This document shows, one piece after another, positions 18,644 through 43,390 of a stretch of 51,112 nt of DNA; position 1 is the first letter of the stretch, and each line of letters starts with the position of its first letter. The position numbers and the translations under genes were made by a program. The notes under the pieces are model-generated. The model was not told the origin of the DNA and searched no databases. It was given only the letters and a program-made list of their open reading frames with translations. The DNA comes from a virus: the IMG/VR virus record IMGVR_UViG_3300018080_000237, positions 1-51,112 of that record. One strand, written 5' to 3'.

Positions 18644-21600
18644 TTATTTAAGCAACGCAACATAATCTGCCTCATTCATTAAAGTATATGTAAAAGTATT
18701 TCCCCAATTTTTGATTGCAAGTTTGATAATACTAATAAATTGTGCAAAATCTGATGGAGAAGAGAAAACTTGGCAGCCTGCTGACCACTTATCAACATAT
18801 GTTGATTTATGAGAAGGACTTGCTCTATGTATATTAGCAGCAATTATTTCATAAACAATATTTTCTTCATTTAAATTAAGTTTATCGTCTTTGGTATTAT
18901 CCCTGTAAAAATAAATAGCCCCTTTTTGTTTCAACGCTTCATATCCTTTATGAAAATTTAAATAATAAGAACTTTTATATTGTCCTTCTTTCATTATAGC
19001 AGTTCCTTGACTAGTTATAGGGCTTCGTAAATAATAATTTCCTGGAGTAGTAGTTACAGGATAAGTTTTTAAAATCCATTCACCACCATATTTCCAGAAT
19101 ACAGCTATAAAATCATCAAATAGATTTTTTTGACTTAATCCTTGTCTAAGACCAACAATATTTAAATTATAATTTTTATTTTCTTTTTCTCTAATCTCAT
19201 ATCCTTTGCTTTTCATTAACTGAATTAATGTTTCTACGTTGATTTTTTTTCTAAATTCTTCCCTTGGCCCTGCATCATTATATGCTATTAAATTAGCTTT
19301 GTCTTCAGCAGTATAACCTGCTTCATTAGCAATTGGCGCAGCTACTGGCCCCAAATCTTTTAAATAACCAAGTGTTATTGGTGGAATTCCTCCATAACCG
19401 CCCTCCACAGAAAATCTCATTCTTATTCCCTCAAAATTAGTTTCCATATTATTTGGTGTAATAGAGTGTTTTACTTTCATAATTTGATATAAACCACCAA
19501 ATAAAGGCATAGAAGACAGAAAAAAATATTGCATAGGATATACTTGAGCATTTCCAATAATATCACAAGTAGCTCTATAACTTCTTCCCTCTAAAACAGG
19601 AAGCATAGAACAATCTGTAGTTACTGTTTTATTAGTATTTTCATCATCAACCAATCTTTGTAAATTAATAATACTTTCTGCTGTTGGTTTTGTGTCTTCA
19701 GTACCTACAGAAATATTTTTAACAATTTGATTTTCTACAGAACCAAATTTAATATCAATCGCATTAACATCAAATTCATTTTGTTTTCCAAAATCCATTA
19801 ATGTAGCTGGGTCATCATTACTTAGCTTGCTTCTTGTTTCTGGGGTAGGAGTAAATATTACATGAAAATAATTTACAGGATGAATTTGTAAGCCATAAGT
19901 TGTATATGGTTTAAAAATATCTTTTATATTATTTGCTTGAGAATCTCCTGGAAATGGAACAAACACAAAATTATTTTTTGTGCATAATTGTTGAATCATA
20001 TTTAAAACAGTCGTGTTCGCATTAGGTTTATATAATGGCTCTATATTAATTATTGAATCTTTAACATATATTGGGTCTTCTTTTTCTTTTTCTAAATTTT
20101 GATTAATATTTCGTAAAGGATAATCATAGACGAATGTTCCATTGCTAAGATTAGCAAAATTGTCATTTGCTCCCCCTTCAATGTGATGTCCACCATATAA
20201 CTTCTCTAATGCTTCTGGCAATCCTTCCCCCGTCATATTTTCTACATTACATATATAACCTTTTGTATGCGTTAAGCCTGTTTCAGTTTGTATAGTAGAA
20301 GCAACACTATTCCATTGATGAAAGATGGTATGCATTTGTTTATAAATCAAATTTCTTTCGTTTCCTGCTTTACCTAAAACTCTTCCAATAACCCTACTGC
20401 GTTCTTCTTCAATTTTTTCTATTTTAAGTTTTATGTTTTTACACATTTGTTTAATATATACTCGCTGATTTCTTCCTTTAGGTCCTATAACAAATGGGCC
20501 AAAAACCAAATCATCTCCTTGATAGCGATTATCTTGATGAGTATAAACTGTAAATGCCAAATTTTCTGGCTTTGCATCTTCAGAACCTTCCCCAACTCTT
20601 TTTGTCCATAAAAATATATCTCCAAATTCTTCTGTTGAACCTGTAAAATTGTAAATATTATTTGGCGGGTTTTTTAATGAAGTATAACTTAAAACTCTTT
20701 TTGCTTCAATATATTTATTAATTGTTTTAATTCTCTCTAAAATGTCTCCTTCTTCATCTTCTAATTTATCAATTTTTACAATTCCTAGTGGCTCTGGTTG
20801 AAATTTAAGCCCTAAATTTCCGCTCCCTACGTCTTTATCCTCATCTTGAAATTCTGTATCTGTTATTGAACTATTTTTTTCTTCTAATTTTATTACATCA
20901 GAACCTTCAAACATTACCATATAATATTTATCTGGTTGTCTGTTAGGAACAAAAAATGGCAATCCATTATTCATAACTCTAGGGGAAGTCAAAGTTTTTA
21001 TATTAACAAAAGTTAATTCTGATGGCTCATTTGTTTTATCAGGCGATGTTGTGGTATTTAAAGTTTGTTGGGGAATATAATTATATATTATATGTTTTAA
21101 AGTTAATACATTATCTCCATATTTTAGTTCTCCTGAATCTATAGCTTTATTAAAATTTGAAAGCCCTTCAATTGTAGATATATTATAATCATCTGGGTCT
21201 AATTTACCTAAATTCATTATAACAGGATAATTCAAAATTTCTTCATTAACAGGCTCTTTGCCAACATTGAAACCACTATTTAATTTAGAAACTGTTAAAA
21301 ATGTAGGATAAAAAACTCCTTTTCCATATTTTTCTCCATTTGCTACCAAAAAATCATCACCATCACTGCTTAAAAGTTTATCAAAAAAAGTTACAAAACG
21401 CTTTAAACTATCTCTTTCATCATCTGACATATCTCCCAACATTTCGCTAGTAATATTTTCAGAATCTTCATTGGCTAAATCAATTATATTATCTTCATCT
21501 CCATCTCTATCTGTTGATTTACCTTTCCCATAATCTCCTGGCAAATTTGGGTCATTGCTTCTTGTTAAGTAAGCTGCTATTCCAGAACGAATTAAAACAT

Positions 21601-22750
21601 TTGTTATAATACTTCCCACATAAGGTTTATATGGATTGTCTTGCAATATTTCTAAATTATTTATACGTTTTTTTAATACTGAACTGCTTTCGCCTATATC
21701 ATCAGAGTCTCCTAAGTTTCTCGCTATCCCTGCCGTAATAGCTTCAATAAATTGGTCTACAAATTTCATTTCAAAATTATCGACCCCAACATCACTACTA
21801 CCCTCTACTGTTTCCAATTCAAGTTTTGTTGCGGGAACTTCTTCTTTATCTTTATTTATAATTAAAGGAAATGAGTTTCCAATTAAAATTTTTCTATTAG
21901 CCCTACGAATATCTTTATTCTCATTATAACCTTTTATTCCAGCTTCTAATATATGTCCTAAAATTAAACCTGCATCTTTAGCTATTTGACTAAAAATTTC
22001 TGATATAGTTATTTTGCGTAACTGAGTTTTAGTTGCTTGATAAGTCCTTCTTTTTATCTCTTCAGTAATTTTATCAATATTTGAATCAATTCTTTTTAAA
22101 ACATTTATTTTTGCATTTGAAATATTTGTATCAGTAAGGTCTACATCAGCATATCTTATACCTGGCATTGTTTCTATTCCAGTTAATGATGTAACCACAC
22201 CTGGAACTCTTCCTTTAAGACCTGACAAAACAGGGCCATTTTCATCTTTTTTTGCATTTAATAAAAGATAAGCATTAAATTTAGATATTTCAGAAATATT
22301 ATCTAATTTTTCTTTTTGTTCTTTTTCGTTTTCTAATCCTGGTTCTTTTATATCTTCTGGATTTGGAAAATAAATTGATTGAAATCCTTTTATAGGTATA
22401 TTGTTTACTATGCCAAGAAGAGTTGTATTATATTTAAGTGTTTTATCTTTAAGAATAGCAGAAGCAACATTATATTTTATTGAACTCATTTGCTTTAAAA
22501 TCAAATCAAATTCTTTAGTTTTTTCTGTTCTTTTAACTTCTACTTGTTTTCCAATTTTAATAAGATTAAAAATGCTTGTTTTCTTTTTATTTGGAGTTGA
22601 ATCTTGTCTAAGCTTTTCTGCTGCTAATAAATAGAGAAAAGGCATATCTGCAAAAAAACCCCATTGATTTGGCACAAAACTTGCCCTAATATCATAACTA
22701 CCATCATTTGGATTATAAGATACCTCAGTTTTTTTTAATTTAATATCCAT
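18644..22750 (-). CDS. Tail/baseplate hub protein with C-terminal YkuD-like cell-wall domain
   Basis: 1368 aa. The N-terminal stretch (VSYNPNDGSYDI, FVPNQWGFFADMPFLYLLA) continues a fold begun in the upstream reading frame. Residues about 985-1130 (DVNAIDIKFGSVENQIVK, SYRATCDIIGNAQVYPMQYF, GGLYQIMKVKHSITPNNMET) have the character of phage tail hub proteins of the gp27/gpD type. The last 150 residues include YYLRSPITSQGTAIMKEGQY and NIHRAS...DKWSAGCQVFSS, giving H-x14-S-A-G-C, close to the H-x14-17-[ST]-H-G-C of L,D-transpeptidase (YkuD) domains but with Ala for the second His. A peptidoglycan-acting role at injection is inferred. It is the last gene of the tail cluster and is probably continuous with the next feature. 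Confidence 0.88.
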   Translation of the reverse strand: MDIKLKKTEVSYNPNDGSYDIRASFVPNQWGFFADMPFLYLLAAEKLRQDSTPNKKKTSIFNLIKIGKQVEVKRTEKTKEFDLILKQMSSIKYNVASAILKDKTLKYNTTLLGIVNNIPIKGFQSIYFPNPEDIKEPGLENEKEQKEKLDNISEISKFNAYLLLNAKKDENGPVLSGLKGRVPGVVTSLTGIETMPGIRYADVDLTDTNISNAKINVLKRIDSNIDKITEEIKRRTYQATKTQLRKITISEIFSQIAKDAGLILGHILEAGIKGYNENKDIRRANRKILIGNSFPLIINKDKEEVPATKLELETVEGSSDVGVDNFEMKFVDQFIEAITAGIARNLGDSDDIGESSSVLKKRINNLEILQDNPYKPYVGSIITNVLIRSGIAAYLTRSNDPNLPGDYGKGKSTDRDGDEDNIIDLANEDSENITSEMLGDMSDDERDSLKRFVTFFDKLLSSDGDDFLVANGEKYGKGVFYPTFLTVSKLNSGFNVGKEPVNEEILNYPVIMNLGKLDPDDYNISTIEGLSNFNKAIDSGELKYGDNVLTLKHIIYNYIPQQTLNTTTSPDKTNEPSELTFVNIKTLTSPRVMNNGLPFFVPNRQPDKYYMVMFEGSDVIKLEEKNSSITDTEFQDEDKDVGSGNLGLKFQPEPLGIVKIDKLEDEEGDILERIKTINKYIEAKRVLSYTSLKNPPNNIYNFTGSTEEFGDIFLWTKRVGEGSEDAKPENLAFTVYTHQDNRYQGDDLVFGPFVIGPKGRNQRVYIKQMCKNIKLKIEKIEEERSRVIGRVLGKAGNERNLIYKQMHTIFHQWNSVASTIQTETGLTHTKGYICNVENMTGEGLPEALEKLYGGHHIEGGANDNFANLSNGTFVYDYPLRNINQNLEKEKEDPIYVKDSIINIEPLYKPNANTTVLNMIQQLCTKNNFVFVPFPGDSQANNIKDIFKPYTTYGLQIHPVNYFHVIFTPTPETRSKLSNDDPATLMDFGKQNEFDVNAIDIKFGSVENQIVKNISVGTEDTKPTAESIINLQRLVDDENTNKTVTTDCSMLPVLEGRSYRATCDIIGNAQVYPMQYFFLSSMPLFGGLYQIMKVKHSITPNNMETNFEGIRMRFSVEGGYGGIPPITLGYLKDLGPVAAPIANEAGYTAEDKANLIAYNDAGPREEFRKKINVETLIQLMKSKGYEIREKENKNYNLNIVGLRQGLSQKNLFDDFIAVFWKYGGEWILKTYPVTTTPGNYYLRSPITSQGTAIMKEGQYKSSYYLNFHKGYEALKQKGAIYFYRDNTKDDKLNLNEENIVYEIIAANIHRASPSHKSTYVDKWSAGCQVFSSPSDFAQFISIIKLAIKNWGNTFTYTLMNEADYVALLK

Positions 22751-23079
22751 GTTACTCTTCTGCCTAAATAGCCTTTAAATGTAAAATAAAATTTGGGCGG
22801 TGGCCAATTAAATAATGCAGACCTATCAAGAACTCCACCTTGTTGAACTACAGTCTTACCATATAAATCTTTTATAGTAATTTCAACTATTGGTTGTAAT
22901 GAGGTGTTTACTTCAACATCTATATTTGTAATTCCGAATCCCGTGCTTTCTCTAAAAAAACTTGTTGAAAATGTTTCTTTTCCAGTATAATCATATCCTG
23001 TTCCATCAACACAAACTACAAGTCTAGCATCTAAAAACAAATCCTTAATATTAAATCTTTCTGCAGATTCTACAGGCAT
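22735..23079 (-). CDS. N-terminal part of the hub gene (probable frameshift) or small baseplate protein
   Basis: 114 aa ending in FKGYLGRRVTWILN, overlapping the hub start by 16 bp in the -1 frame. Such segments (FxGYLG followed by a strand and then YNPNDGSYDI) normally run on without a break in phage tail proteins. Adding one T in the AATTAAAAAAAA tract just at the junction gives ILNLKKTEVSYN in a single frame, so the two reading frames look like one gene of about 1480 codons interrupted by a one-base deletion, real or from sequencing. Taken as a separate gene it would still be a baseplate-associated beta-rich protein. Its start follows an A/T-rich tract with TATAAATT. Confidence 0.75.
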   Translation of the reverse strand: MPVESAERFNIKDLFLDARLVVCVDGTGYDYTGKETFSTSFFRESTGFGITNIDVEVNTSLQPIVEITIKDLYGKTVVQQGGVLDRSALFNWPPPKFYFTFKGYLGRRVTWILN

Positions 23080-23090
23080 TTTTATAAATT

Positions 23091-23396
23091 TTAAATTAAA
23101 TCTTTATTCACAATAATTTGCGAAACTATTTCACTAATAACATCTTCTTCTGGAAAAGGGATTCTAATAACTGTATTATCTGGAATATCATATTCATAAT
23201 AATATTCTGGATTTGCCCACAAAATAATCTTCCCCAAAGTTTCATCTTCATATATTTCACCAGCTATTTTATCTAATCGATTGAAATTTTTATTATATGT
23301 AACATATTTATCAGTCTTCCTAATAGAAATTTCAATAGGCGGCATATTTTTCAATTCTTTATTTTCTCGCAAATATTGATAAAAATCAAAAGGCAT
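23091..23396 (-). CDS. LysM/GpX- or gp53-like baseplate protein
   Basis: 101 aa. The core (KYVTYNKNFNRLDKIAGEIY, DETLGKIILWANPEYYYEYD, IPDNTVIRIPFP) matches the pattern of phage tail proteins with a LysM-like fold (P2 GpX type) and of T4 gp53-like wedge proteins: D-x-IA-x-x-x-Y, then ILWANP, then I-P-x-x-T-x-x-x-IP. It lies between the repeat-rich tail protein and the hub fragment, consistent with a baseplate or tail-completion role. A TATTTATA element is 18 nt upstream. Confidence 0.8.
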   Translation of the reverse strand: MPFDFYQYLRENKELKNMPPIEISIRKTDKYVTYNKNFNRLDKIAGEIYEDETLGKIILWANPEYYYEYDIPDNTVIRIPFPEEDVISEIVSQIIVNKDLI

Positions 23397-23453: not shown

Positions 23454-26400
23454 TTATCTTTTTGGGCCGTAATATCCCCCTTTGTCTGTAGATAATGGTG
23501 GGTCTCCTTCTTCAATACCCCAAGGACCAATAATATTAAATTGAACAGTAACAGAAACCCACATGGGTTGAGCTCTTAATTTACCATTAAGCCCCTTATC
23601 ATTAAAACTCCACGGTGCATCAGCATAATCATAAGAAACAGAATTTACAACAATATCATGATTAAACCACGTTCCTAATCCGATATGGGCTATCGGTGGT
23701 CTTGTAAACATAAATCCTGTATCTGGAATAATATTTCTTGCTGGTCTAGTTAATTTTTCTAAAAATTCAACTCTTCTTTCAAAATCAACATCATCTCCAG
23801 AAAAAAATGCTGGTTGAAACATTAAACCTTGATTCATCTGATTTAATCGTGTAATTGTATCTGCTAAAGTTGTAACAACATCTCCATTTTCACGACTTGG
23901 CTGTGTAATATTAGACATATAAATATTTCCGATAACATCTGATGATTCAGAATAATTTGGGTCTTTTGATAAAATTTCTTGTTCATTAATTTCATCATTT
24001 AAAGAATTGCTTTCAACTTGTAAATCTTCTTTACTTTTTGATTTTTCAGCATCTTTAGGTTTTTGACTTTTTAATTCTCTGATAGTTTGTTTTAATGTTC
24101 TTCTTTCCTCTTTTAAATTCGTTCTTTGTTCAGCAGTAGCGGTTGGAATTTCGGCATTTATTTCATTAATTCTTTCTTCCATTTTATTTATTTCATCATC
24201 AATATCTCCAATATCATTATCATAATTTTCGACTTGTTTATCAATTCCTGCTTTTTGCTTTTTTAACATTTCAATTTCAAGGTCTTTTTTACTATAATCT
24301 GTGAAATGTCTATTAAGTCTTATAGCCTGATGGTCTCTTATATTACCGCTTCCATAATCTCTTCCTATTAATACTCTTTGAGAATAATCTGTTAAAACAT
24401 AAAAAGTAATGCTTCCATTTCGTGAAGAATTATTATAAGTATATACAGGTTCAGGCCTTCCTAAAAATAGATTTTCATTCCATGATGCATTTGCAGTATT
24501 TTGAAAACTTTGAATATATGGTGGAAAATATATTGTTTCTCCACCATTTATTGAATAATTTTTAAAATAAAATATTAATTTAGCTGCTTCTCTTGATGGA
24601 GCATATGGGTTTTTAATGGTAAATCTTTGTTTAGAAACTCTTTTGGCATTATTTTTCATGCCAATTACAAATTCTTTTCCATTATAATTTGCACCCCTAG
24701 GTCCATCTATTCCTTGTATGTTTCTAAAATTCTCTGCAAAATTAATACTGCTTTCACTTATATCTTTAAGAATTTTTTTAACACCTTTTCTGCCTGTTTT
24801 AAAATCAACATCATCAAGAGGATTTCCTGCTGTACTTTTAGCGGCTAACGAGCCTTCAGTTTTTAATAGTTTATCTGCTTCTCCTTTTACATAATTTCCT
24901 TCATCATCTGCAACAATAGATTTTGCACGGTCAGCATATTTTAAATCTTTATCAAAAGCCCCAATGGTTTTTTCTATTAAATCTCCAAAAAGAGGTATAG
25001 CCTCATTTGCTGCATATGCATTTAATACACTTGCCCCCATTTCTCCAGGAGAATATCCATTAAATTTTGAAATATTAAGTATATATGGATTTGCTTCTAC
25101 ATTATATCTTCTTATAATATTAGTTAATCGACCTTCCATATAAGTAATATTAACATCATCTACTGGAACATCAGCAGCATCTCCTTTTGCTATTTGAACT
25201 TTTCTGCTTGGCTCGTCAGAAATACCAAAATATTCTTGAGTATTTAAAAGCGTGTTGAAACTTTGGTATGGGGATTTATTACTATATTCTATACTTCTGG
25301 CTATGTTTTCCAAACTATATTGTATTGGAGATTGATAACCCAAAATACCTTCGAGTTCATCTGGTGGAGTATATGGTAAACTCGCTATATTTGGTTTCTT
25401 TGTGTCCTCTAATAAAGATGGACTTGTTGAATAATTATACCTGTTCCAATAGTATGTATATTTATTTTGAGTAACCATACTGCCCATTATACTTCTTGAA
25501 GATTTTTCTAAATCTATTGATTTCGGAACATTTCTCAACATCATTAAATTCCTAAACAAAAGACCCATTGTCCATACTCTTGAAATTCCTATAAAAGTGC
25601 TGGTACCTAAAGCAGAAATATTAACTCCAAAAAGCCCTCCAGAATTATGTGATAATTGTTCTTTCAAATAAGGAACAGAATCTAATAATAGATTGGTTGA
25701 TGTTGATACATTTTTAGATAAATCTCCCAATCTAAAATTTTCTGAAGTTGTTAATAAATCACCCCCGCCCTTTCTATTGCCTTTTCCTTTTGTACTACTT
25801 ATTCTAAATGATTTAAAATCATCTTCCAAATCACTTTCAATTGATACATTTTTAGTTAAATTATCTTTTCTATATTGTTCTGAATTTGTATCTAAATCCG
25901 ATTCGCTTTCTGCATTATTCGCCAAATCGTCATCCCTATATTGCTTGGAATCTGTTTCTAAATCTGTTATGCTCCCTGTGTTTTTTGCTAAATCATCATC
26001 TCTGTATTGTTTAGAATCTGCTTCCAAATCAGCCTGAATATCTTCGTTTTTAGATAAATCATCTTTTCGATATGCTTCTGAATCTTTCTCTAAATCAGTT
26101 GTAACAGATGCATTTTTAGATAAGTCATCTTCCCTATATAATTTTGAGTCAGTTTCTAAATCAGTTTCAACAGCTTCGTTTTGTGATAAATCATCTGCTC
26201 TATAAACTGGAGAATCATTTTCTAAATCTGATGATATTGATTTATTTTGTGCTAAATCATCTTTTCTATATGTTTCTGAGTCTTTTTCTAAATCAGTTGT
26301 GACTGCTTTGTTTTGTGCTAAATCAACTTTTCTATATGCTTCCGAGTCTTTTTCTAAATCTGATTCGGTAGACTTATTTTTTGATAAGTCATCTTTTCTA

Positions 26401-27695
26401 TGAGACTCTGAAATGCTTTCTAAATCCGATTCTACAGATTTGTTTTTTGATAAATCGTCTGCTCTATATATATTTGAATTTTCTTCTAAATCAGCTGTTT
26501 TGGCTTGATTTAACGAGAGATTATCTTTTCTATAAGTGTTGCTATCATTTTCAAGATTTGTGTCTTTAGAAGCATTTAAACTTATATCATTTTTCCTAAA
26601 TTCTTTTGAATTTTCTTCTAAATTTGTCGAAACAGATTTGTTTTTTGATATATCATCTTCTCTAAATTCTTCTGACATCTTTTCAAGGTCAGAAGATTTT
26701 GACATATTTTTTGATAAATCATCAGTTCTAAATGCAACAGAGTTGGTTTCTAAATCTGATTTGGTAGACTTATTTTTTGATAAATCATCTTTTCTATATG
26801 CTTCTGAATTTTTTTCTAAATCAGTTGTGTCTGTTTTGTTTTGTGCTAAGTCATCTTTTCTAAATCCTTCTGATAATTTTTCTAAATTTGTATCTTGATT
26901 ATCATTTGAAGCAACATTGTCTTTCCTGAATTGCTCAGAAATTTCTGCAAGGTCTGTTTGAGTGGGGGCATTACGTGCTACATCATCAACCCTATGCTGT
27001 TTAGAGCTACTTTCTAAATCTTGTAATTGTTTGGTGTTTCTTGCTAAGTTATCTTTTCTGAATTGATGAGAAATTTTTTCTAAATTACTTTCAGTAGTTT
27101 TGTTATGCGTTAAACTATTTTTTCTATATTCTTTTGAAATATCTTCTAAATCTGCTTCGCTTTTTACGTTTTTAGCAGTTTGATTTTCTCTATATGTGCC
27201 AGATTTGTCTTCCTCTCTATCTTTAAAATAAGATTGAGTTTTGTTTTTTGCTAAACTTTGTCTTCTGATACTTTCAGATTCTTTCATCAAATCAAAATCT
27301 GAATCTAGATTTTTTGCAGTAGCATTTTTTCTTATTTCTTCTGATTGTTTCAAAAGATTTTCAGTGCCTTGATGCATTTTTTCTCTGGCTAATATAGATT
27401 TTCTGAAATTTTCTGATATTTTTTCTAAATCTGAATGTTCAGATACTTGTTTAGCCAGAAGAGTATTTCGTATTGCTATAGAACTTTCTTCTAAATTGGT
27501 ATCAAAAACTTTGTTGTTTTTTGCAAGCAAATCGTTTCGAACTTCAGGATAATAAATATCATATAGACTCGTAATCTTTTTAAGATTTTTAGACATAAGT
27601 TGTTTTCTGACCTCAGAAGAATAAGCTCCAAAGAAATTCTTAAATTTCTTATCCAATCTTTCTTTTTCGTAATTTTCGTCTATATATGAAAACAT
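23454..27695 (-). CDS. Giant tail/baseplate protein with about 29 tandem 22-residue repeats
   Basis: 1413 aa. From about residue 25 to 680 the protein consists of tandem units close to 22 residues, with the pattern [SA]KN-x5-DLE-x2-S-x2-YR-x-DDL. About 29 units can be counted; the central ones are the most regular and the ends degenerate. The C-terminal half is a different domain set: a Lys/Glu coiled coil near residues 1130-1240 (KKQKAGIDKQVENYDNDIGD) and beta-rich segments (LIFYFKNYSINGG, GSITFYVLTDYSQRVLIG, WVSVTVQFNIIGPWGIEEGD) like tail or baseplate proteins. It sits between the tape measure and the baseplate hub. The repeats would form an extended helical or coiled rod, perhaps a fibre, spacer or internal ruler. 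The role is inferred from position. Confidence 0.85.
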   Translation of the reverse strand: MFSYIDENYEKERLDKKFKNFFGAYSSEVRKQLMSKNLKKITSLYDIYYPEVRNDLLAKNNKVFDTNLEESSIAIRNTLLAKQVSEHSDLEKISENFRKSILAREKMHQGTENLLKQSEEIRKNATAKNLDSDFDLMKESESIRRQSLAKNKTQSYFKDREEDKSGTYRENQTAKNVKSEADLEDISKEYRKNSLTHNKTTESNLEKISHQFRKDNLARNTKQLQDLESSSKQHRVDDVARNAPTQTDLAEISEQFRKDNVASNDNQDTNLEKLSEGFRKDDLAQNKTDTTDLEKNSEAYRKDDLSKNKSTKSDLETNSVAFRTDDLSKNMSKSSDLEKMSEEFREDDISKNKSVSTNLEENSKEFRKNDISLNASKDTNLENDSNTYRKDNLSLNQAKTADLEENSNIYRADDLSKNKSVESDLESISESHRKDDLSKNKSTESDLEKDSEAYRKVDLAQNKAVTTDLEKDSETYRKDDLAQNKSISSDLENDSPVYRADDLSQNEAVETDLETDSKLYREDDLSKNASVTTDLEKDSEAYRKDDLSKNEDIQADLEADSKQYRDDDLAKNTGSITDLETDSKQYRDDDLANNAESESDLDTNSEQYRKDNLTKNVSIESDLEDDFKSFRISSTKGKGNRKGGGDLLTTSENFRLGDLSKNVSTSTNLLLDSVPYLKEQLSHNSGGLFGVNISALGTSTFIGISRVWTMGLLFRNLMMLRNVPKSIDLEKSSRSIMGSMVTQNKYTYYWNRYNYSTSPSLLEDTKKPNIASLPYTPPDELEGILGYQSPIQYSLENIARSIEYSNKSPYQSFNTLLNTQEYFGISDEPSRKVQIAKGDAADVPVDDVNITYMEGRLTNIIRRYNVEANPYILNISKFNGYSPGEMGASVLNAYAANEAIPLFGDLIEKTIGAFDKDLKYADRAKSIVADDEGNYVKGEADKLLKTEGSLAAKSTAGNPLDDVDFKTGRKGVKKILKDISESSINFAENFRNIQGIDGPRGANYNGKEFVIGMKNNAKRVSKQRFTIKNPYAPSREAAKLIFYFKNYSINGGETIYFPPYIQSFQNTANASWNENLFLGRPEPVYTYNNSSRNGSITFYVLTDYSQRVLIGRDYGSGNIRDHQAIRLNRHFTDYSKKDLEIEMLKKQKAGIDKQVENYDNDIGDIDDEINKMEERINEINAEIPTATAEQRTNLKEERRTLKQTIRELKSQKPKDAEKSKSKEDLQVESNSLNDEINEQEILSKDPNYSESSDVIGNIYMSNITQPSRENGDVVTTLADTITRLNQMNQGLMFQPAFFSGDDVDFERRVEFLEKLTRPARNIIPDTGFMFTRPPIAHIGLGTWFNHDIVVNSVSYDYADAPWSFNDKGLNGKLRAQPMWVSVTVQFNIIGPWGIEEGDPPLSTDKGGYYGPKR
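25660..27640 (-). repeat. 66-bp coding tandem repeat array
   Basis: About 29 head-to-tail units near 66 bp encode the 22-residue repeats of the giant tail protein. DNA copies are diverged at synonymous and non-synonymous sites, but on the plus strand the words TTTTCTAAATC and GATAAATCATC recur every 66 bp. There is no spacer or dyad structure; these are protein repeats, not CRISPR. Confidence 0.9.
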
Positions 27696-27741: not shown

Positions 27742-29031
27742 TTAAACCAAAAGCTCTTTGGTTAGAATTTTCTCAATATCGTTGAATTTTGTATAAGGTA
27801 TTCTGATTAGTTTTATATTATTCTTCTTTGCATACTCTGTTTTGATTTTGTCGTTTTGTTGAGTTTTTTTAAAATTTTGTTTTATCTTTGTGTTTGACTG
27901 ACTTCCAAAAGAAATCGGCTCATAGTGTTGTTTTCCGTCATATTCTATTAATATATTTTTTTCTTTTATATAAAAGTCAAATGGTAAACATCTTTTGTTT
28001 TTACAGTCTGAATATTTTTTTTGGTATATAAAATTAATTTTTTTTGTTTTTAAAAAACCTCGTATTATTTTTTCCCCTTTTGATTTATTGTTACAAATTG
28101 GACATCCATCTCTATTTAAATGATTCATCGGTGTTTGTTTGAATTCGCCATGTTTTTTACATATAATTATTATTTTTGTATGATTATTTTTATATTTAAT
28201 ATTAGAATAATCATATTCATCTCCATGAATTTTTTTTGCCCTTTCTATAAATTCAGATGTTGTTAGTTTAATATTTCTAGCGCATTTTTGGCATCCATTA
28301 CCGCTCAAGTGATTCACAGGAGACTGTTTAAATTTTCCATGAATTGAACATATAATTTCTACTTTTGTTCTGTTGTTATTATAATTAACATTAGAATAAT
28401 CATATTTATTTCCATGAATTTTTTTTGCTTTTTTTATAAAACCTTTAGTCGTTAATTTAAAATTTTTCGCACACTTAGGACAACCGCTTCCTTTTAAATG
28501 ATGTATGGGCATTTGTTTAAATATGCCATGTTTTTTACATATAATTTTTACTTTAGTATAATAATCTCTATAGATAATATTAAAATAGTTATATTTATTT
28601 CCATGAATTTTTTTTGCCCTTTCTATAAATTCAGATGTTGTTAATCTTACATTTCTAGCACATTTCGGACATCCACAACCTCGGAGATGCTCATTTGGTT
28701 TTTGCTGAAACTCACCATGAATAGAACATATAATTATTATTTTATTATTATAGCTCTTATATATAGATTTAGAATAATCATATTTATCTCCATGAATTTC
28801 TTTTGCTCTTTTTATAAATTCAGATGTTGTTAATCTGATATTTCTAGCACATTTTGGACATCCACTGCCATTCAAATGATTCACAGGAGATTGTTTAAAA
28901 TTTCCATGAATTGAACATATAACTTCTACTTTTATTCTATTGCCGTTATAATCAACATTGGAATAATCATATTTATTTCCATGAATTTTTTGTGCTTTTT
29001 CAATAAATTCTTCTGTTGTTAATCTTTTCAT
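27742..29031 (-). CDS. Free-standing homing endonuclease with five DUF723-like repeats and Vsr-like nuclease
   Basis: 429 aa. Five tandem units of about 63 residues each contain TTSEFIERAKKIHG, KYDYSN, ICSIHGxFKQ, NHLxGxGCPKC. Each has a C-x2-H and a C-x2-C pair that could bind zinc, the pattern of DUF723-like DNA-binding repeats. The C-terminal 130 residues are a Vsr/PD-(D/E)XK-like nuclease: KCLPFDFYI-type strand (RCLPFDFYI), ILIEYDGKQHYEP, then KTEYAKKNNIKLIRIPY. This fits a homing endonuclease with modular DNA recognition. The gene overlaps the small ribbon-helix-helix gene by an ATGA and lies between the tape measure and the repeat-protein genes. Confidence 0.87.
   Translation of the reverse strand: MKRLTTEEFIEKAQKIHGNKYDYSNVDYNGNRIKVEVICSIHGNFKQSPVNHLNGSGCPKCARNIRLTTSEFIKRAKEIHGDKYDYSKSIYKSYNNKIIIICSIHGEFQQKPNEHLRGCGCPKCARNVRLTTSEFIERAKKIHGNKYNYFNIIYRDYYTKVKIICKKHGIFKQMPIHHLKGSGCPKCAKNFKLTTKGFIKKAKKIHGNKYDYSNVNYNNNRTKVEIICSIHGKFKQSPVNHLSGNGCQKCARNIKLTTSEFIERAKKIHGDEYDYSNIKYKNNHTKIIIICKKHGEFKQTPMNHLNRDGCPICNNKSKGEKIIRGFLKTKKINFIYQKKYSDCKNKRCLPFDFYIKEKNILIEYDGKQHYEPISFGSQSNTKIKQNFKKTQQNDKIKTEYAKKNNIKLIRIPYTKFNDIEKILTKELLV
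28095..29028 (-). repeat. Five coding tandem repeats of about 190 bp
   Basis: The DNA behind the five DUF723-like units keeps high similarity between copies (for example TAATATTTCTAGCACATTT and ATTTCCATGAATTGAACATAT recur), suggesting fairly recent internal duplication. Copies 1 and 4 are especially alike in the N-N-R-x-K-V-E segment. Confidence 0.75.
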
Positions 29032-29442: not shown

Positions 29443-32400
29443 TTAAAGGTCATACGCATTTGTATCACGTATTATTGTTTCACTCAATACTCTGCCATTC
29501 GGAAGAGTTAATTGAACAACAATTGGCTTTTGGGTACCACCTGCACCCGCAGCACCACCTCCACCTCGTAATGCATTTGCAAAATCTGCCAATGCGCTTG
29601 TTACTGTTGTATTAGCAGTAGCTTCGGCAAACTGTTTAGAAATTTCTTTTAATTTCTCTAATTTATCCATACTTAATTCTGCCAATGCATCTTTAAGTTT
29701 TTCTACACTTGCAGCAAAAGAAGACATGGCTTTATCTGCAATAACCATTCCTTGTGAAAAATCTTTCATGGCCATACCTACTATATTAAGGGGTTCAGCA
29801 AGCATAGCTATTCTTGCAAGTTTATCAAATATATCACCTCCAAAAAATTTTCCAATAGCTGAACCAATTCCTGCAATAATTGAACCTCCTCCAAAAGCAG
29901 CTAAAGCAATACTCAAAGCAGTAATAGAACCAGCTAAGGCTAAAATTCTTAATGGGTCAATATCTCCTAATTTAACTATTGAATCAGCGATAGCTGTTAT
30001 TACTGTAGCTATTGCGACTCCAACACTTTCAATAACAGCTCCGATTCCTGTGAAAAATGCTTCTATAAACGGGGCCGCCGCACCAAGCGCTTGTCCTAAT
30101 AATTTAAGAGCAAACGCTAATCCTATTATTACAGGAGTAAATGCATATGCAATAGGTATCGCTGGAGCTGCTGACATTAATGCTGTGAAAAATGCTGCCA
30201 AGCCACGTCCAGCTGCACGCATTATTGTTACAAAAGTTTTTCCAACTGCTTTTGCAATAGAAGTTATTACATCTACAATACCTTTACCGATTTTTGATAA
30301 TACTTTAAAAATATTAGTAAAAATATTTCCTATACCACCAACTACTTTTGCTGCACCTTTTTGAAGACCTGCTAAACCCCCAAATCCACCCACAGGGGCT
30401 GTTGACGCAACTGGAGCGCCGCCTTTTGGCAAGCCTCCTCTAAACGCACCTGCTATAGATTGACCTATATTTTTCCATGCCTGTGGCTTAAAAATATTTC
30501 TAAGAATTCCAAGATTCCTTGCGAATCCTTTTGTTATAAAAGCTCCAAATTTTAAAACATGACCTCCAAATGCCGCTGTTGCTATAACAAAACCTAAAAT
30601 CCATTTTCCCCACTCACCTGTAGCATCCATAACTTTATTAAAAATATCACCAACAAATTGTAAAACTTTTGTTAATACTTTTAGAACAGGTTCAAAAACG
30701 GTTAATGCATATAAAAACGAATCAGTAAACCCTTTAAATGTTTCTCTTAGGCTCATATTTGCTTTTGCTCTTTCTTCTATCGCTTTTTCTTCTTCTTGGA
30801 TTTGTTTATAAATAGCTAGTGCTTGTTCTTGGGTTAATTGACCTAAACTATCTAATCCAGCTTTGTCTAATAGGCTTCCTTCTTTGACTACTCCTTCAAC
30901 ATCAACTTGGTCTAAAATCATCGATTTCATCGCATCTTCATCAATTGGTTTACCAGCTTCATCCGTCATCCCTTTAAATGTCATCGATGGCATCATATCC
31001 ATTTTTCTGGCATCCTCAGCATTTTTTCGAGTCATTTCCATCATTTCGCCAAGCGATATGCCTAATGAATCTGCAACAATTTGTAATCTATCTTTATCAA
31101 CAGGGCCAAAAGCAAATTTCATTTTGCCCTCCGCATCTTCTGCCCAATGTCCAATATCATCTCCCATTTTTGTTAATAATTTCATCAATTCTTGGGGAGA
31201 AGTTCTTGCCGCCGCAAGAAGCTGCATCGGGTCAATATTTGCAAATGAGCCACCTGCAAGCTGAAGTTCTGCCGCCATTTCGATTGCCGAATCAATCTGT
31301 CTAGCTCTTTTTGCTATATCAAAAACACTATCAATATTTATCCTTAATCTTTCGGCTTGTGCTGTCATTTTAATAAGGCTTTCTTCTCCCCCAGAAAAAC
31401 CAAATTCTTTCATTAATTTTAAATTTCTTGCTATACCTTCCATCATTCTTCTGGAGCTTACACCAAATAACCCAGCTTGTACATTTATATCAACCATATA
31501 ATCTTTTGCTTGTTCCGCAGAATATCCAATTTTCATTAATTCACTTCCTATTTCAGCTATATCTTTAACAGATGCACCAGTAGCCATTTTAATTGCTTGA
31601 AAGTTTTCTGCAGCTCCTATTAAATCATCTGTTTGTACTGTTCTTAATTCGTCAGCCATTTCTCCCATTAATTCAGCATTATCTTCTAATGTCATCCCAA
31701 GACGAGAAGAACCTCTCGCTAAATCTGTCATGCGGGAAGCACTGTCTTCAAAATTTGCACTTGTGGTTCTTTGTAATTGATGTATAGTTTCATCAAATTG
31801 AAGTAAAATAGGAATAGCTTGTCGTGCTATATTTTTGGCAATTTGTTCAAAACCTTTGGCTATATTAAAAACAGGCTTTTCTGTTTCTTGAACTTGTTTT
31901 TTTAAATCTGATTGAGCTTTTTTTGCTGAAATAAGGCTTTTAACAACACTGATTTCTTCTTCGCCTAACAATGTTGTAGTTTCTAATATTTCTGCCGCAT
32001 TTTCCCCTAGCTGCTCAGTTAATGCTGCAAAATCTTTATTTAATAAATTGTTTATTGCTTGTTGTTTTTCATAATCACTAGACAAAGCATTTATAAATTG
32101 TAATTGTGCTGGTATCTCATCATATATTTTTTTCCTTTCTTTATCTAATTCCTTAACTTCTTTAAACACTTCTTGCATATCCTTTTCAGTAATCAAATTT
32201 TTGTCTCTTAATTTTTTTAATTTTTCGTTATCTTTAAGAAATTCACCAAAAGGTTTTTCAATATCTTTTTGTAAGATATTTGATAGTTTTTCTAATTCTG
32301 TAATGGGGATTTCTTTGCCTAAACCAGTTAAAGTTTCAGATATTTTTTCAGTAAATGCAGTTTGTGATTTAGAAATTGTGCTATAAATTTTTTCTACATC

Positions 32401-32697
32401 ATCTTCGCTTATAATATTTTCAAAAGCTTTCCCAAGTTTTTCATTCACTATAACACTTAAATCTCTTACAGCTTCAGACATTTGGTTAAGTTGTTCAACT
32501 TGCTTCGCTATGTCTTCTGTTGTTTTTGGAACTTTATCAAACCATTGAGCACCACTAACGCCAAATATTTTGCTAGAAATACCATCCCAAAGATTAGTGA
32601 GTTCTTCAGTAACCTTTTTGGTTTTCTTTTGTACTTCATGATATTCATTAGCAAGTTTTATAGCATTTTTGTACGCTTCAGGATTGATATTTGCCAT
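29443..32697 (-). CDS. Tail tape measure protein
   Basis: 1084 aa. The N-terminal 320 residues are long charged helices, coiled-coil in character. Next comes a typical tape-measure segment (FEDSASRMTDLARGSSRLGM, then MKEFGFSGG, then MAAELQLAGGS). The C-terminal third alternates hydrophobic helices (about 700-720, 870-900 and 910-990, for example IPIAYAFTPVIIGLAFALKL) with Gly/Ala/Lys-rich stretches. The last part ends in a Gly-rich turn and a strand motif KPIVVQLTLPNGRVLSE. It sets tail length and reaches the host membrane during injection. It is followed by the RHH/homing insertion and preceded by the terminator at 32770-32801. Confidence 0.92.
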   Translation of the reverse strand: MANINPEAYKNAIKLANEYHEVQKKTKKVTEELTNLWDGISSKIFGVSGAQWFDKVPKTTEDIAKQVEQLNQMSEAVRDLSVIVNEKLGKAFENIISEDDVEKIYSTISKSQTAFTEKISETLTGLGKEIPITELEKLSNILQKDIEKPFGEFLKDNEKLKKLRDKNLITEKDMQEVFKEVKELDKERKKIYDEIPAQLQFINALSSDYEKQQAINNLLNKDFAALTEQLGENAAEILETTTLLGEEEISVVKSLISAKKAQSDLKKQVQETEKPVFNIAKGFEQIAKNIARQAIPILLQFDETIHQLQRTTSANFEDSASRMTDLARGSSRLGMTLEDNAELMGEMADELRTVQTDDLIGAAENFQAIKMATGASVKDIAEIGSELMKIGYSAEQAKDYMVDINVQAGLFGVSSRRMMEGIARNLKLMKEFGFSGGEESLIKMTAQAERLRINIDSVFDIAKRARQIDSAIEMAAELQLAGGSFANIDPMQLLAAARTSPQELMKLLTKMGDDIGHWAEDAEGKMKFAFGPVDKDRLQIVADSLGISLGEMMEMTRKNAEDARKMDMMPSMTFKGMTDEAGKPIDEDAMKSMILDQVDVEGVVKEGSLLDKAGLDSLGQLTQEQALAIYKQIQEEEKAIEERAKANMSLRETFKGFTDSFLYALTVFEPVLKVLTKVLQFVGDIFNKVMDATGEWGKWILGFVIATAAFGGHVLKFGAFITKGFARNLGILRNIFKPQAWKNIGQSIAGAFRGGLPKGGAPVASTAPVGGFGGLAGLQKGAAKVVGGIGNIFTNIFKVLSKIGKGIVDVITSIAKAVGKTFVTIMRAAGRGLAAFFTALMSAAPAIPIAYAFTPVIIGLAFALKLLGQALGAAAPFIEAFFTGIGAVIESVGVAIATVITAIADSIVKLGDIDPLRILALAGSITALSIALAAFGGGSIIAGIGSAIGKFFGGDIFDKLARIAMLAEPLNIVGMAMKDFSQGMVIADKAMSSFAASVEKLKDALAELSMDKLEKLKEISKQFAEATANTTVTSALADFANALRGGGGAAGAGGTQKPIVVQLTLPNGRVLSETIIRDTNAYDL

Positions 32698-34720: not shown

Positions 34721-35764
34721 TTATCGAATTTTACCTTTATTCATTCTGGCTTGTTGAACAGCTTTTTCTTCAGCTTTATTTTTCTTTTCTATTTCTTCTT
34801 CGATGCGATTTATATGCCATTTTCTTGAAAAAACAGGCATTTGTTCTGCATTATCCCAAGTAATGCCTTTTCCATAATAAGTTATTAAGAATACTTCTTC
34901 TGCTACGCTATTTGCATAATTGGAAGGTAAAGATAAAAAATCATATCCAAAATCTAATTTTCTTTGAAAATCATGTGAACAAAATTCACATTGATGATTG
35001 AATATGTTTTTCACTCCTATCTTATTTTTTTCGATAAATTTGTTTAATTCAATTGCATCGTATTTAGGAATATTTTTAATAATTTTTTTGATTTTGTTTT
35101 TATCTCGGACACCATTTAATTCAGAAATTGCTGAGACTAATTTATTTGTTTCTGTAGTTTTAATTTTTGTATTTATACCTAAATCTTTATAAATAATAAA
35201 ATCTTCAGTATCTTTTTCAATATTTTCTATTTCATCTCCAAATGTTAATAGTTTTGTCTTACCACTTAATCCAGATTTTGATAAACAAAAAGCAAATTCA
35301 TTATTTTCGTCTGGCTCATCTTCATTTTCTTTAAATTCTAATTTAGAAAGATATAGCATAAATTCACCTTCTTTTTTACAGCTTGGGCATTCATAAGGAA
35401 ATGTAATAGAATCTCCATAAGCTGTTGACCTTAAAAAAATCAAAAGTGCTTGAAAATCGCTTAATAATAAATCTCTTATATTAATATCATTATCGATAAT
35501 AAGATTATTCAAAATAAGCTCTATTCCCTTCCCTGATTCCATTAATAAAGAATCGGTTAAAATATTCTCTTCAATTGCAGATAAATATCTAATTAATAAA
35601 GATTTCTTTTTGTTTGGATAAAAAGTGCCTTTAGAGGGGAGATTGATTATACTAAATCGTCTTTTTAAATCAATATTATTATTTTCTGATTTTTGAAAAT
35701 CATAAAATCCCTCTAAAAATGAATCTAAAGATTTTTTAATATCTTGAAATTTTTCTTCAAGCAT
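34721..35764 (-). CDS. T4 gp26-like baseplate protein, paralog 1
   Basis: 347 aa. INLPSKGTFYPNKKKSLLIRYLSA, ENILTDSLL, LLLSDFQALLIFLRSTAYG and a four-cysteine ribbon (CPSC at about 124 and CEFC at about 281) are the signature of the T4 baseplate (gp26-type) family. These proteins act in baseplate hub assembly. The next gene upstream encodes a paralog with the same order of motifs. Compared with it this copy has a longer C-terminus with a charged tail (EEEIEKKNKAEEKAVQQARM). It starts 5 bp after the paralog stop, so the pair is co-translated. Confidence 0.85.
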   Translation of the reverse strand: MLEEKFQDIKKSLDSFLEGFYDFQKSENNNIDLKRRFSIINLPSKGTFYPNKKKSLLIRYLSAIEENILTDSLLMESGKGIELILNNLIIDNDINIRDLLLSDFQALLIFLRSTAYGDSITFPYECPSCKKEGEFMLYLSKLEFKENEDEPDENNEFAFCLSKSGLSGKTKLLTFGDEIENIEKDTEDFIIYKDLGINTKIKTTETNKLVSAISELNGVRDKNKIKKIIKNIPKYDAIELNKFIEKNKIGVKNIFNHQCEFCSHDFQRKLDFGYDFLSLPSNYANSVAEEVFLITYYGKGITWDNAEQMPVFSRKWHINRIEEEIEKKNKAEEKAVQQARMNKGKIR

Positions 35765-35769
35765 CGAAA

Positions 35770-36606
35770 TTAAAGTTCAGCATCTGGATAGAAAAGCCTA
35801 TAATTTAATGGTACATCAGCATCAAAAACATGACCACAATTGTCACAAGTAAAAGCATAATTAAAGTCTACACCAGGAGAAATTAATCTTACATATTCTC
35901 TAAATGCTATAGAATCTTTCATAGGCATTGCCTCAACCAATTTTCCAATATAAATTTTATCCCTATTGCCCTTCACAGCCATAATTTGAATTTTATATCT
36001 CTCTGTAATAATTCTTGAAACTTTATAGGTGCTTTTTTTACCCTTTGTGCCTGTTGTGGAAAATTTCGATAAGTAATTCTCATCTTTACCATTTAATAAT
36101 CTGAATTTAATTGGAATCTTCATAACAGGCAAATCAAAATCATATTCTAAATTTTCATCTGGCTCAGTGTCAGGGAATTTTAATTGTAGTTTATCTAAAT
36201 CAACATCTGGCGAAAATTCTTCATCACATGATGGACATGTCATTGAACCTGGTTGATATATATTTCCTAAACCAGTTTTTCTTAAATGAAGCAAGACTGC
36301 ATTTCTATCTCCAATTAACATATCATCTGGACGAAGTGTTGGGTCAATAATTGCAACCTGAAGAAGTGCATCTAAAACTTTTCCAGACCTTAAAAGTTCT
36401 GGTGAAAAAAGTATATTATCTTCATTTGCTGTCAAATATTTAACTTCTACAGCTTGTTGTTTATTCGGGTAAAAAATACCCTTAGATGGTAATTCTACTT
36501 GTTCAGTAGGCACCTCAAATTCTCTATCAATAAACTCTTCAGGAACTTCATCTTTAGCTGTTTTATCTGTGTTTCCTATAACAACTTTACTTTCTTTTTC
36601 AGTCAT
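35770..36606 (-). CDS. T4 gp26-like baseplate protein, paralog 2
   Basis: 278 aa. VELPSKGIFYPNKQQAVEVKYL, ANEDNILFSPELLRSGKVLD, DMLIGDRNAVLLHLRKTGLG and cysteines CPSC and CDNC mark the same baseplate family as the downstream gene. The central segment FRLLNGKDENYLSKF is typical of this family. It is closer to the usual family length than its neighbour. A TATTTATA element is located farther upstream than normal (55 nt). The duplication suggests a heteromeric or sequential role in baseplate assembly. Confidence 0.87.
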   Translation of the reverse strand: MTEKESKVVIGNTDKTAKDEVPEEFIDREFEVPTEQVELPSKGIFYPNKQQAVEVKYLTANEDNILFSPELLRSGKVLDALLQVAIIDPTLRPDDMLIGDRNAVLLHLRKTGLGNIYQPGSMTCPSCDEEFSPDVDLDKLQLKFPDTEPDENLEYDFDLPVMKIPIKFRLLNGKDENYLSKFSTTGTKGKKSTYKVSRIITERYKIQIMAVKGNRDKIYIGKLVEAMPMKDSIAFREYVRLISPGVDFNYAFTCDNCGHVFDADVPLNYRLFYPDAEL

Positions 36607-38041: not shown

Positions 38042-40327
38042 TTAATCATCCCATAAATTATTTTTAACTTTTTGAAATTTAGCATTACTTTTAAAGTTAA
38101 TGAACCCTTTTTTATTTCTAACAAATTCCGATATATAAACACCACCTTTTTCTAATTGAGAGTAAATTTTATTATGCATTTTATCAAAGGCTCTCAACGT
38201 TGTTGTACTAATACCGTCTCCGACTCTCATTTGTAAATATTTTTTCCCTTTCACAGAATCTAATTCTTTAAATGTTTCAACAACAAAAAAATAATAATCA
38301 TTTTCAGAAAAATTTATAATGCTTTCAATAACTCTACCCGCTCTTTCTCTTAATTGATTCTTAATGTTTGCCATTTTTTCTATTTTTTCTAAATCAAAAT
38401 TGCATACTTCTATAAATTCTTTTTTCTTTTGCAATTCAGGTGTCTCTTCATATTTCGAATTTTGTAATTGTGATTCAAAACCTGAGGAACTTAGATTAAA
38501 CAATGCTATCTGATTTTCAGCAACTTTTTTTCTCTTTCTTGTTTTTAAATCAATTAGATGGTCTCTCGATTTAGACCAATCATCAAAAACACCAGCCTTA
38601 ACTGCTGCTCCAAATGAAGTCTTATTAAATTTAGAAAATTTTAAACTAAAAAATTCTGCCATACTAATTGTATCTAATGTTTTTTCATTTTCTTTAAGCA
38701 ATTGCATTAATTCTTTATAAGCTATATCTCCCATACCAGTAATGCCTGAAAATCCCATTGAAATTTCTTTGTCCCCAGTCATTGTCCATTTCCATCCAGA
38801 TTTTCTTGATGGAGTTTTTATTTTAATGCCTCTAGACATTGCGGCAGCAATCGTAGAAGCAAGCCATCTTTTTTGTTCTTCCTTTTTGCTTCCTTTTGGA
38901 TAGTTTAATAAGCATGCATAAAATTCAGTAGGATAATAATGTTTAAGATATAAAGTTTGCATTGCTAAATATGTGTAACTCAAACTGTGACTACGATTGA
39001 ACGAATATCCCAAATATTTATTAAGCCAGTTTTTTATTTTATCAATTTCTCCTTTTTTATAACCATTTTTTTCTGCTCCATCTAAAAATTGATTCCAATA
39101 TTTTTGAAAATTTTTATACTTATCGCCATTTAATTCTTTCTCGGTTAATTCTTCTCCTTTGGCTTGTTTTTTAAGCAAATCTCCTGCAATATCCATATAT
39201 CTTCTTAACATATCCCCATCGCCAAGCGACATTCCCGCAATTTGATTTGCAATAAACATAATTTGTTCTTGGAAAATTAATACCCCATTGGTTCTTCCTA
39301 ATATTGGCTGTAAAGCTGGATGAATATATTCTATTTTATCTGGATTAAATTTATTTTTAATATACTCTTCATGGGCACCTATTCCCATAGGGCCTGGACG
39401 GTATAAAGCAGCAGCTGCAACTGCCTCTTCAAAATTTTCTACTTGCATACCTCTAATTAAAGCATTCATCCCAGAGCTCTCAAATTGAAATATACCATTA
39501 TTTAAACCTAACCTTAATTCGGTATATAAATTAATATCAGTTATATCAACATAATCAATTTTATCTTGTATATCTATTCCTTTTGTTTCTTTAATAAGAT
39601 TTATCGTGTCTCTAATCACATTCAAAGTATCTAATTTTAACATATCTAATTTTAATATGCCTAATTTTGATAAATCTTTACCGCTTTTATCAGCTTCTTG
39701 AAATGCAGTAACAACAGTTTTTTTTGAAGCAATTATATTAGTTGGAATATATTCCCAAGACGGGCCTGGAGTAATAACAACTCCTGCTGCATGTTGTCCT
39801 ACTCCTCGAATTTGTCCTTGTAGTTTTAATGTTTGTTGTAAAATTTCTTTATTTTCAGGATTTTTTAACCAAGATTTAACTACAGGGCTACAATTTTTAT
39901 CGTTTGGCCACTCATCAAACCACCAATTTAATCTATAATCTACTTTTAACCAATTTGGCATTTCTTCTGTAACTCTAAACACATCAGAGTCATATCCTGT
40001 TTCTTCTGGACCACGATGAGCTCTGACGACATCTTTCAAACATGCTTTTTCATTAAATGTTAAAAAAGTTGCAACAGGCAAAACTCTTTCTTTGCCATAT
40101 TTGTTAATTAAAAATTCATTTGTGATATTATCCGTATTAGATTGGTAATCTATGTCGATATCAGGGGACGAATTGTGTATTAATATGCTAAAATTCAGCA
40201 AATTATCACACTCATCTAAATCTTTACTTGATGAAAAAAATAAATTATCTTTATCAAATGATAAATCATAAACCTTTTTTCCATTATATTTTATTTTTTT
40301 TATTTGTTTTATTTTAGAAATTTTCAT
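38042..40327 (-). CDS. dnaE: DNA polymerase III alpha (DnaE-like), C-terminal half with split-intein C part
   Basis: 761 aa: 52 residues of C-intein, then a 709-aa polymerase half starting SSPDIDIDYQS. Catalytic aspartates are in PDIDIDY and in KLDMLKLDTLNVI. Other alpha-subunit motifs are YRPGPMGIGAHEEYIKNK, GVLIFQEQIM, FNRSHSLSYTYLAMQTLYLK and the helix-hairpin-helix GFSGITGMGDIAY; a C-terminal OB-like region follows. Joined to the 460 residues of the N-terminal gene it gives a polymerase of about 1169 aa, the normal DnaE length. The ATG follows the endonuclease stop directly (TAA then ATG), so it is translated with that gene. Function requires protein trans-splicing. Confidence 0.95.
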   Translation of the reverse strand: MKISKIKQIKKIKYNGKKVYDLSFDKDNLFFSSSKDLDECDNLLNFSILIHNSSPDIDIDYQSNTDNITNEFLINKYGKERVLPVATFLTFNEKACLKDVVRAHRGPEETGYDSDVFRVTEEMPNWLKVDYRLNWWFDEWPNDKNCSPVVKSWLKNPENKEILQQTLKLQGQIRGVGQHAAGVVITPGPSWEYIPTNIIASKKTVVTAFQEADKSGKDLSKLGILKLDMLKLDTLNVIRDTINLIKETKGIDIQDKIDYVDITDINLYTELRLGLNNGIFQFESSGMNALIRGMQVENFEEAVAAAALYRPGPMGIGAHEEYIKNKFNPDKIEYIHPALQPILGRTNGVLIFQEQIMFIANQIAGMSLGDGDMLRRYMDIAGDLLKKQAKGEELTEKELNGDKYKNFQKYWNQFLDGAEKNGYKKGEIDKIKNWLNKYLGYSFNRSHSLSYTYLAMQTLYLKHYYPTEFYACLLNYPKGSKKEEQKRWLASTIAAAMSRGIKIKTPSRKSGWKWTMTGDKEISMGFSGITGMGDIAYKELMQLLKENEKTLDTISMAEFFSLKFSKFNKTSFGAAVKAGVFDDWSKSRDHLIDLKTRKRKKVAENQIALFNLSSSGFESQLQNSKYEETPELQKKKEFIEVCNFDLEKIEKMANIKNQLRERAGRVIESIINFSENDYYFFVVETFKELDSVKGKKYLQMRVGDGISTTTLRAFDKMHNKIYSQLEKGGVYISEFVRNKKGFINFKSNAKFQKVKNNLWDD
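40172..40327 (-). other. Split intein, C-terminal fragment
   Basis: 52 residues at the start of the C-terminal polymerase gene. Block F is VYDLSFDKDNLFFSS and block G is NFSILIHN with Ser as +1 residue. The Asn codon is 40172-40174. All C-terminal splicing residues (His-Asn and Ser+1) are present. It matches the N-fragment at 41424-41705 in position within the polymerase. Confidence 0.93.
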
Positions 40328-41377: not shown

Positions 41378-41402
41378 AAAAAAATTTAATTTAGTCTTTA
41401 TC

Positions 41403-41410
41403 TATAAATA
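41403..41410 (-). promoter_or_regulatory. Putative TATTTATA promoter of endonuclease and polymerase C half
   Basis: CTATATTTATAGATAAAG on the coding strand in the 43-bp gap between the N half of the polymerase and the endonuclease gene. It would let the endonuclease and the C half be transcribed apart from the N half. Confidence 0.45.
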
Positions 41411-41420
41411 TAGAAAAAAA

Positions 41421-43171: not shown

Positions 43172-43390
43172 TTAATAATAATCACTATCATAATCTTGCT
43201 TCTGCTTTTTAATCTTTTCTCTTATCGTAAATCCTAATTCTTCCAGCTCTTTGATTTTTTTTCTGATTTTAATTCCCGATTTTTTAAAATCAGAATAGCT
43301 AAAGAATTTTTTAAATTCAGACTGACATTCATCACGAATTTGTTTAAATTTTTCCCAATCCTCTTTTAAATTATAATAATCATTAATCAT
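43172..43390 (-). CDS. Hypothetical protein, 72 aa, after portal
   Basis: A charged helical protein (FKQIRDECQSEFKKFFSYSD, KIKELEELGFTIREKIKKQK) with no recognised domain. It starts within the end of the portal gene (8-bp overlap), so it is translationally coupled to it. Genes in this place in T4-like phages often encode small head or prohead-core proteins, but here that is only positional inference. Confidence 0.65.
   Translation of the reverse strand: MINDYYNLKEDWEKFKQIRDECQSEFKKFFSYSDFKKSGIKIRKKIKELEELGFTIREKIKKQKQDYDSDYY

Follow-up and report, generated by a model that had tools for sequence, protein, structure and literature searches.

Gene neighbourhood of the repeat protein

The window, by which we mean the whole 51-kb stretch of DNA analysed here, is the entire record of a large T4-like virus of bacteria, obtained from environmental DNA. 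Its terminase is T4-like, with Flavobacterium phage immuto as the nearest named relative (35%), and its portal is T4-like as well. The repeat gene (23454..27695 (-)) encodes a tail-tube initiator-like protein of 1413 aa with an N-terminal repeat arm. Along the coding strand, the gene order is tape measure, repeat gene, gp25-like gene and hub. The tape measure protein (29443..32697 (-); 1084 aa) was recognized by matches to tail tape measure PHROGs, and the gp25-like baseplate wedge protein or sheath initiator (23091..23396 (-)) by phrog_7145 and alignment; both are syntenic neighbours. The baseplate hub occupies 18644..23079 (-). The first-pass annotation had placed the repeat gene between tape measure and hub, which is confirmed in the window and in its relatives: every relative seen has the order tape measure, this gene, gp25 and hub, and in all array-bearing ones the gene lies between the tape measure gene and the gp25-like gene. 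Phage tape measure proteins are likewise long, helical and repetitive tail proteins, with a length possibly linked to that of the tail; in the window virus, however, the tape measure is a separate gene and not the repeat gene.

Two features of this neighbourhood were seen in the window but not in the relatives read. The hub is encoded by two ORFs (22735-23079 and 18644-22750) that overlap at 22735-22750 (-) in a run of eight A. It is a single ORF in relatives, and the split reflects either a programmed frameshift or a sequence error. Between the tape measure and the repeat gene, an ORF at 27742-29031 (-) carries about five 63-aa treble-clef (DUF4379) repeats, and its tail resembles an endonuclease domain by eye. 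This ORF was not seen at the corresponding place in the relatives read, where the tape measure gene directly adjoins.

A tube-initiator-like domain at the C terminus

Sequence searches of Pfam, PHROGs and the PDB with the 1413-aa protein returned no credible match. PDB matches of a C-terminal profile (alpha-galactosidase, coiled coils) were dismissed as chance or generic, and weak Listeria protease matches of a repeat-consensus query were taken as chance. An AlphaFold model of the C-terminal part, computed from 23 sequences, features a beta domain (residues about 1034-1390; 23526..24596 (-)) with a coiled coil inserted into it (residues about 1133-1242; 23970..24299 (-)), the latter also delimited by structural alignment. 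The mean pLDDT is 58, and most of the beta domain and the insert reach about 70-90. The insert is missing from the orthologues of immuto, Microcystis phage Mel-JY01 and the uncultured phage LR756508.

The modelled domain matches baseplate chains of PVC (6j0n_b; VIA Z 11.2, rmsd 3.2 over 143 residues) and AFP (6rao_G; VIA Z 11.1, ~145 residues). Baseplate chains of phiCD508 and P1 follow with a VIA Z of about 10, and the A-1(L) initiator 8kea_R with a VIA Z of 9.3 but an rmsd of 8.9. Coiled-coil entries in the same VIA list reflect the insert only and were disregarded. In BFVD, Foldseek matched the model to viral entries annotated as contractile injection system tube protein (E 5.9e-5 and 2.7e-4); on the PDB alone its matches were weak, with a best E of 0.035. 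Profile comparison (hhalign) with T4 gp48 and gp54 gave <1%, a test that gp48 and gp54 also fail against each other (<1%).

The tube initiators of A-1(L) (PMC10966104) and Mu (PMC11915804) are hexamers and contain a tube-like barrel domain. In Mu, the genes are ordered TMP gp42, initiator gp43 and hub gp44 (PMC11915804); in T4 the order is 29-48-54, that is, tape measure and then gp48 and gp54. Based on the tube-like fold and a gene order matching those of T4 and Mu, the 1413-aa protein is very probably a baseplate tail-tube initiator of the PVC/AFP, A-1(L), Mu and T4 gp48/gp54 type. The earlier description of a tail protein with a beta-rich tail domain after the array is supported. The free filament or independent fibre that it had also considered becomes less likely, because the beta domain has a tube-initiator-like fold and the array would be an arm on this ring domain.

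The window protein has a tube-like beta domain and a gene near the tape measure and hub in common with PVC/AFP 6j0n_b and 6rao_G, A-1(L) gp18, Mu gp43 and the P1 and phiCD508 chains. Those chains comprise about 160-280 aa without a repeat arm, whereas the window protein contains an extra ~640 residues of 22-mer array and the coiled-coil insert. No LysM domain or other match was found for it in Pfam; a LysM or alpha/beta second domain, seen in several initiators, is not universal in the family (PMC11915804). T4 gp48 (364 aa) and gp54 (320 aa) resemble the window protein in that their genes are placed after the tape measure, and both phages are T4-like, but neither T4 protein contains repeats.

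An array of 22-residue units

Residues 1-57 form an N-terminal cap (27525..27695 (-)), defined by alignment and kept in all array-bearing relatives, that contains two decayed unit-like RxxL-x-KN motifs (residues about 30-60). The repeat array (residues 58-680; 25656..27524 (-)) follows, and behind it lies a conserved glycine-rich hydrophobic segment, GVNxxGxGTxxFxGxS (residues 684-720; 25536..25646 (-)). Within residues 1-700, self-identity reaches 0.40 for a lag of 22 residues and 0.32-0.34 for lags of 44, 66, 88 and 110; any other lag gives <=0.12, with no signal at lag 11. Residues 701-1413 have no period by the same measure. A unit profile detected 25 units with scores of 22-55, whereas 200 shuffles scored no higher than 11.5; 21 of the 25 are consecutive at a spacing of exactly 22 (residues 173-634; 25794-27179 (-)). 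The 22-residue tandem repeat reported in the first-pass annotation is therefore real. Gaps of 46-47 residues between scored units hold decayed units; taken together with the RxxL-x-KN motifs, these make its figure of about 29 units a fair count.

The unit consensus is L-[SA]-K-N-x4-[ST]-[DN]-L-E-x-D-S-x2-[YF]-R-x-D-D. Four positions, N4, L11, S15 and R19, are nearly invariant across units, and their codons are mixed (N4: AAT 13, AAC 11), which indicates that the array is conserved at the protein level.

Predicted structure of the array

In an AlphaFold model of residues 1-634, each unit contains one helix of ~13-16 residues, and the chain is broken every 22 residues. The mean pLDDT is 52 and the pTM is 0.17. 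Structure prediction of the repeat, proposed in the first-pass annotation and run here on a monomer, thus yielded a regular helix per unit but no confident packing. The first-pass annotation had called a hendecad-type coiled coil or a helical solenoid plausible on the grounds that 22 is twice 11, and the helix predicted in each unit would be compatible with this. However, the modelled helices end in every unit, 53% of 319 family units have a proline at linker position 6 and 19% have one at position 17, and a hendecad coiled coil is further disfavoured by the flat self-identity at lag 11. This renders a continuous rod or solenoid highly improbable. Judging from the model, the unit most likely consists of a short amphipathic helix and a linker, and the array is probably a flexible chain of beads rather than a rigid rod; the low confidence of the model leaves room for order acquired on binding a partner.

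Array-bearing and array-less relatives

The 22-mer array, together with the N-terminal cap, the hydrophobic segment and the C-terminal domain, is present in about 15 distinct viral contigs of up to 388 kb. This family was found by a degenerate DNA motif scan, a C-terminal profile and gp25-anchored scans. Neither direct tblastn against phage records nor a protein-level scan of viral contigs turned up relatives, probably owing to low-complexity filtering and divergence. No 22-mer array was found among the 50,697 phage records searched, and a gp25-anchored scan of prokaryote genomes also found no relatives.

Two further groups of relatives are array-less and have tape measures of about 600-650 and 830-857 aa. 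Profile comparison of the core gave 99.9% between the 22-mer group and the array-less set and 98.5% between the 22-mer group and the immuto/Mel-JY01/LR756508 set, with controls at <1% in both cases; over all groups, core homology was 97-99.9%. In two array-less relatives, L038 (6717-9974) and L039 (5683-9960), the insert of the tube-like domain holds a stretch that by eye resembles an OmpA-type peptidoglycan-binding domain.

Our literature searches found no description of a comparable repeat-arm protein, in line with the earlier remark that no described equivalent was known. The papers covered contain no account of the 22-mer family. Its protein is best seen as an atypical form of an established tail component and not as a new kind of system.

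Turnover of the array

In the window, the DNA identity of adjacent units is mostly 0.65-0.77 in the better-conserved stretches; pairs close to the N-terminal end and the final pair have 0.45-0.58. The first-pass annotation had described near-identical central units and decayed ends: the centre is indeed more alike than the ends, but its units are not near-identical. Near-identical neighbours (DNA identity 0.9-1.0) are present in the five relatives L012, L017, L034, L043 and L044, revealing that the array turns over by tandem duplication. This lineage-specific duplication supports the proposed growth inside the array. In three relatives, L032 (5471-9949), L034 (5489-9955) and L043 (5435-9955), the last array units are a 31-residue variant (KNVxSxQTIDxH...QYG) and constitute a second unit type.

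The array-less relative L038 has a single unit-like motif at its N terminus (score 12.3, compared to 7.1 for the best of 30 shuffles), which on its sequence is a possible seed for amplification. A single N-terminal unit is suggestive in L064 and L047; in the remaining array-less relatives, the search for a single-unit ancestor at the N terminus gave nothing significant against shuffles.

Unrelated arrays at the same position

The orthologue from LR756508 (484-kb record) has the core, the position and an N-terminal repeat array in common with the window protein. Its units, in contrast, are about 17 residues long and strongly acidic (net charge of -249 over 900 aa), unlike the 22-mer. No relatives of the LR756508 gp25 were found among viral contigs. 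The Mel-JY01 orthologue (WWT39329.1, a hypothetical protein of 2255 aa) likewise combines the orthologous core and position with an N-terminal tandem array, which consists of about 18 units of ~44 residues with unrelated sequence and near-neutral charge. By eye, neither the 17- nor the 44-residue units are related to the 22-mers, and other orthologues lack any array. Arrays have therefore probably been built at least three times, from units of 22, 17 and 44 residues, in the corresponding part of the protein. The N-terminal parts of the orthologues reach about 1900 residues.

These unrelated units in sister lineages, the clear recent duplications in L017 and L044 and the low-confidence array model would all fit a disordered spacer that grew by replication slippage and is tolerated at the free end of the arm, with a unit number that has no function. 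Such a spacer would not be expected to retain its asparagine, leucine, serine and arginine in the protein while the codons of old units vary, nor to stay within 533-762 aa over 14 divergent viruses, and we consider it rather unlikely.

Array length and tape measure length

One function suggested in the first-pass annotation was that of a second ruler; here this was considered as an arm that would run along the tape measure. In the 22-mer group, the length of the array correlates with that of the tape measure (r 0.90, and 0.92 for independent contrasts with n 13). When five groups are compared, the N-terminal part becomes longer with the tape measure (r 0.93), unlike the hub (-0.78) and the C-terminal part of the same protein (-0.93). 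The correlation in the 22-mer group rests mainly on L017 and L044: r drops to 0.53 without these two viruses, and the length of a gp26-like gene correlates as well. The relatives of immuto, with N-terminal parts of 322-549 aa and tape measures of 940-1220 aa, break the correlation; adding this group and Mel-JY01 lowers r to 0.72 (p 0.07 for six group means). Alignment of the tape measures revealed scattered indels and no clean ruler indel. A rule of one unit per tube ring was rejected because there is no fixed ratio between units (about 29, 50 and 18-20) and tape measures (about 1100, 1600 and 1350). Coupling of the array to the tape measure is thus possible, but a ruler running along the tape measure is unlikely. 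The broader idea that initiators of this phage group repeatedly evolve giant repeat arms accompanying the tape measure protein, as an anchored second ruler, sleeve or chaperone with a unit number tuned to tail length, is unlikely too.

Possible role of the repeat arm

Fibre shafts are commonly long, variable, repetitive and polar in sequence. The array has the same properties, and its unit types differ between lineages, which would be consistent with the shaft of a surface fibre or whisker projecting from the baseplate. However, the arm extends from the N-terminal side of a tube-ring domain, which in solved structures is located inside the baseplate. Its free end carries just the short conserved cap and no receptor-binding or fibre domain, and no fibre family was matched in Pfam or PHROGs. 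A fibre or whisker shaft therefore appears improbable.

We favour, with some confidence, an initiator whose arm of duplicated helix-linker beads presents a repeated binding motif during assembly. The ring protein would be the starting point for tail-tube polymerisation in a large T4-like myovirus, as with PVC/AFP, A-1(L) gp18, Mu gp43 and T4 gp48/gp54, and by analogy six copies would form the ring. Tandem duplication of the 22-residue unit would have lengthened the N-terminal arm, such that about six flexible arms, each a string of ~29 helical beads, would extend from the base of the tube. The unit may be a motif that binds another component of the tail and is used repeatedly, probably while the tail is being assembled; whether it has such a binding role or is a plain spacer is an even call.

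Typical tube initiators are small ring proteins. The long arms described here recur among large phages that span a broad group. If this recurrence is selected, something at the tail base favours long repetitive arms. Given an arm anchored at a predictable point and a variable number of units, a role in tail length, tape measure handling or DNA ejection is testable. Mel-JY01 is a carrier with a named host (Microcystis), for which virion work may be possible.

Other features of the window

Two neighbouring genes at 34721-36606 (-) both match the baseplate hub family phrog_150 and are likely a duplication. The DNA polymerase III alpha gene is fractured (38042-43085 (-)) in a split-intein arrangement: the part at 41421-43085 ends in an N-intein (Hint), and the part at 38042-40327 starts with an apparent C-intein, just before the catalytic SSPDIDID motif. 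A free-standing DUF7487-like ORF between the two parts (40328-41377) is probably a homing endonuclease. The portal (43383-48221 (-)) and ribonucleotide reductase (7841-11533 (-)) genes each contain a LAGLIDADG intein.
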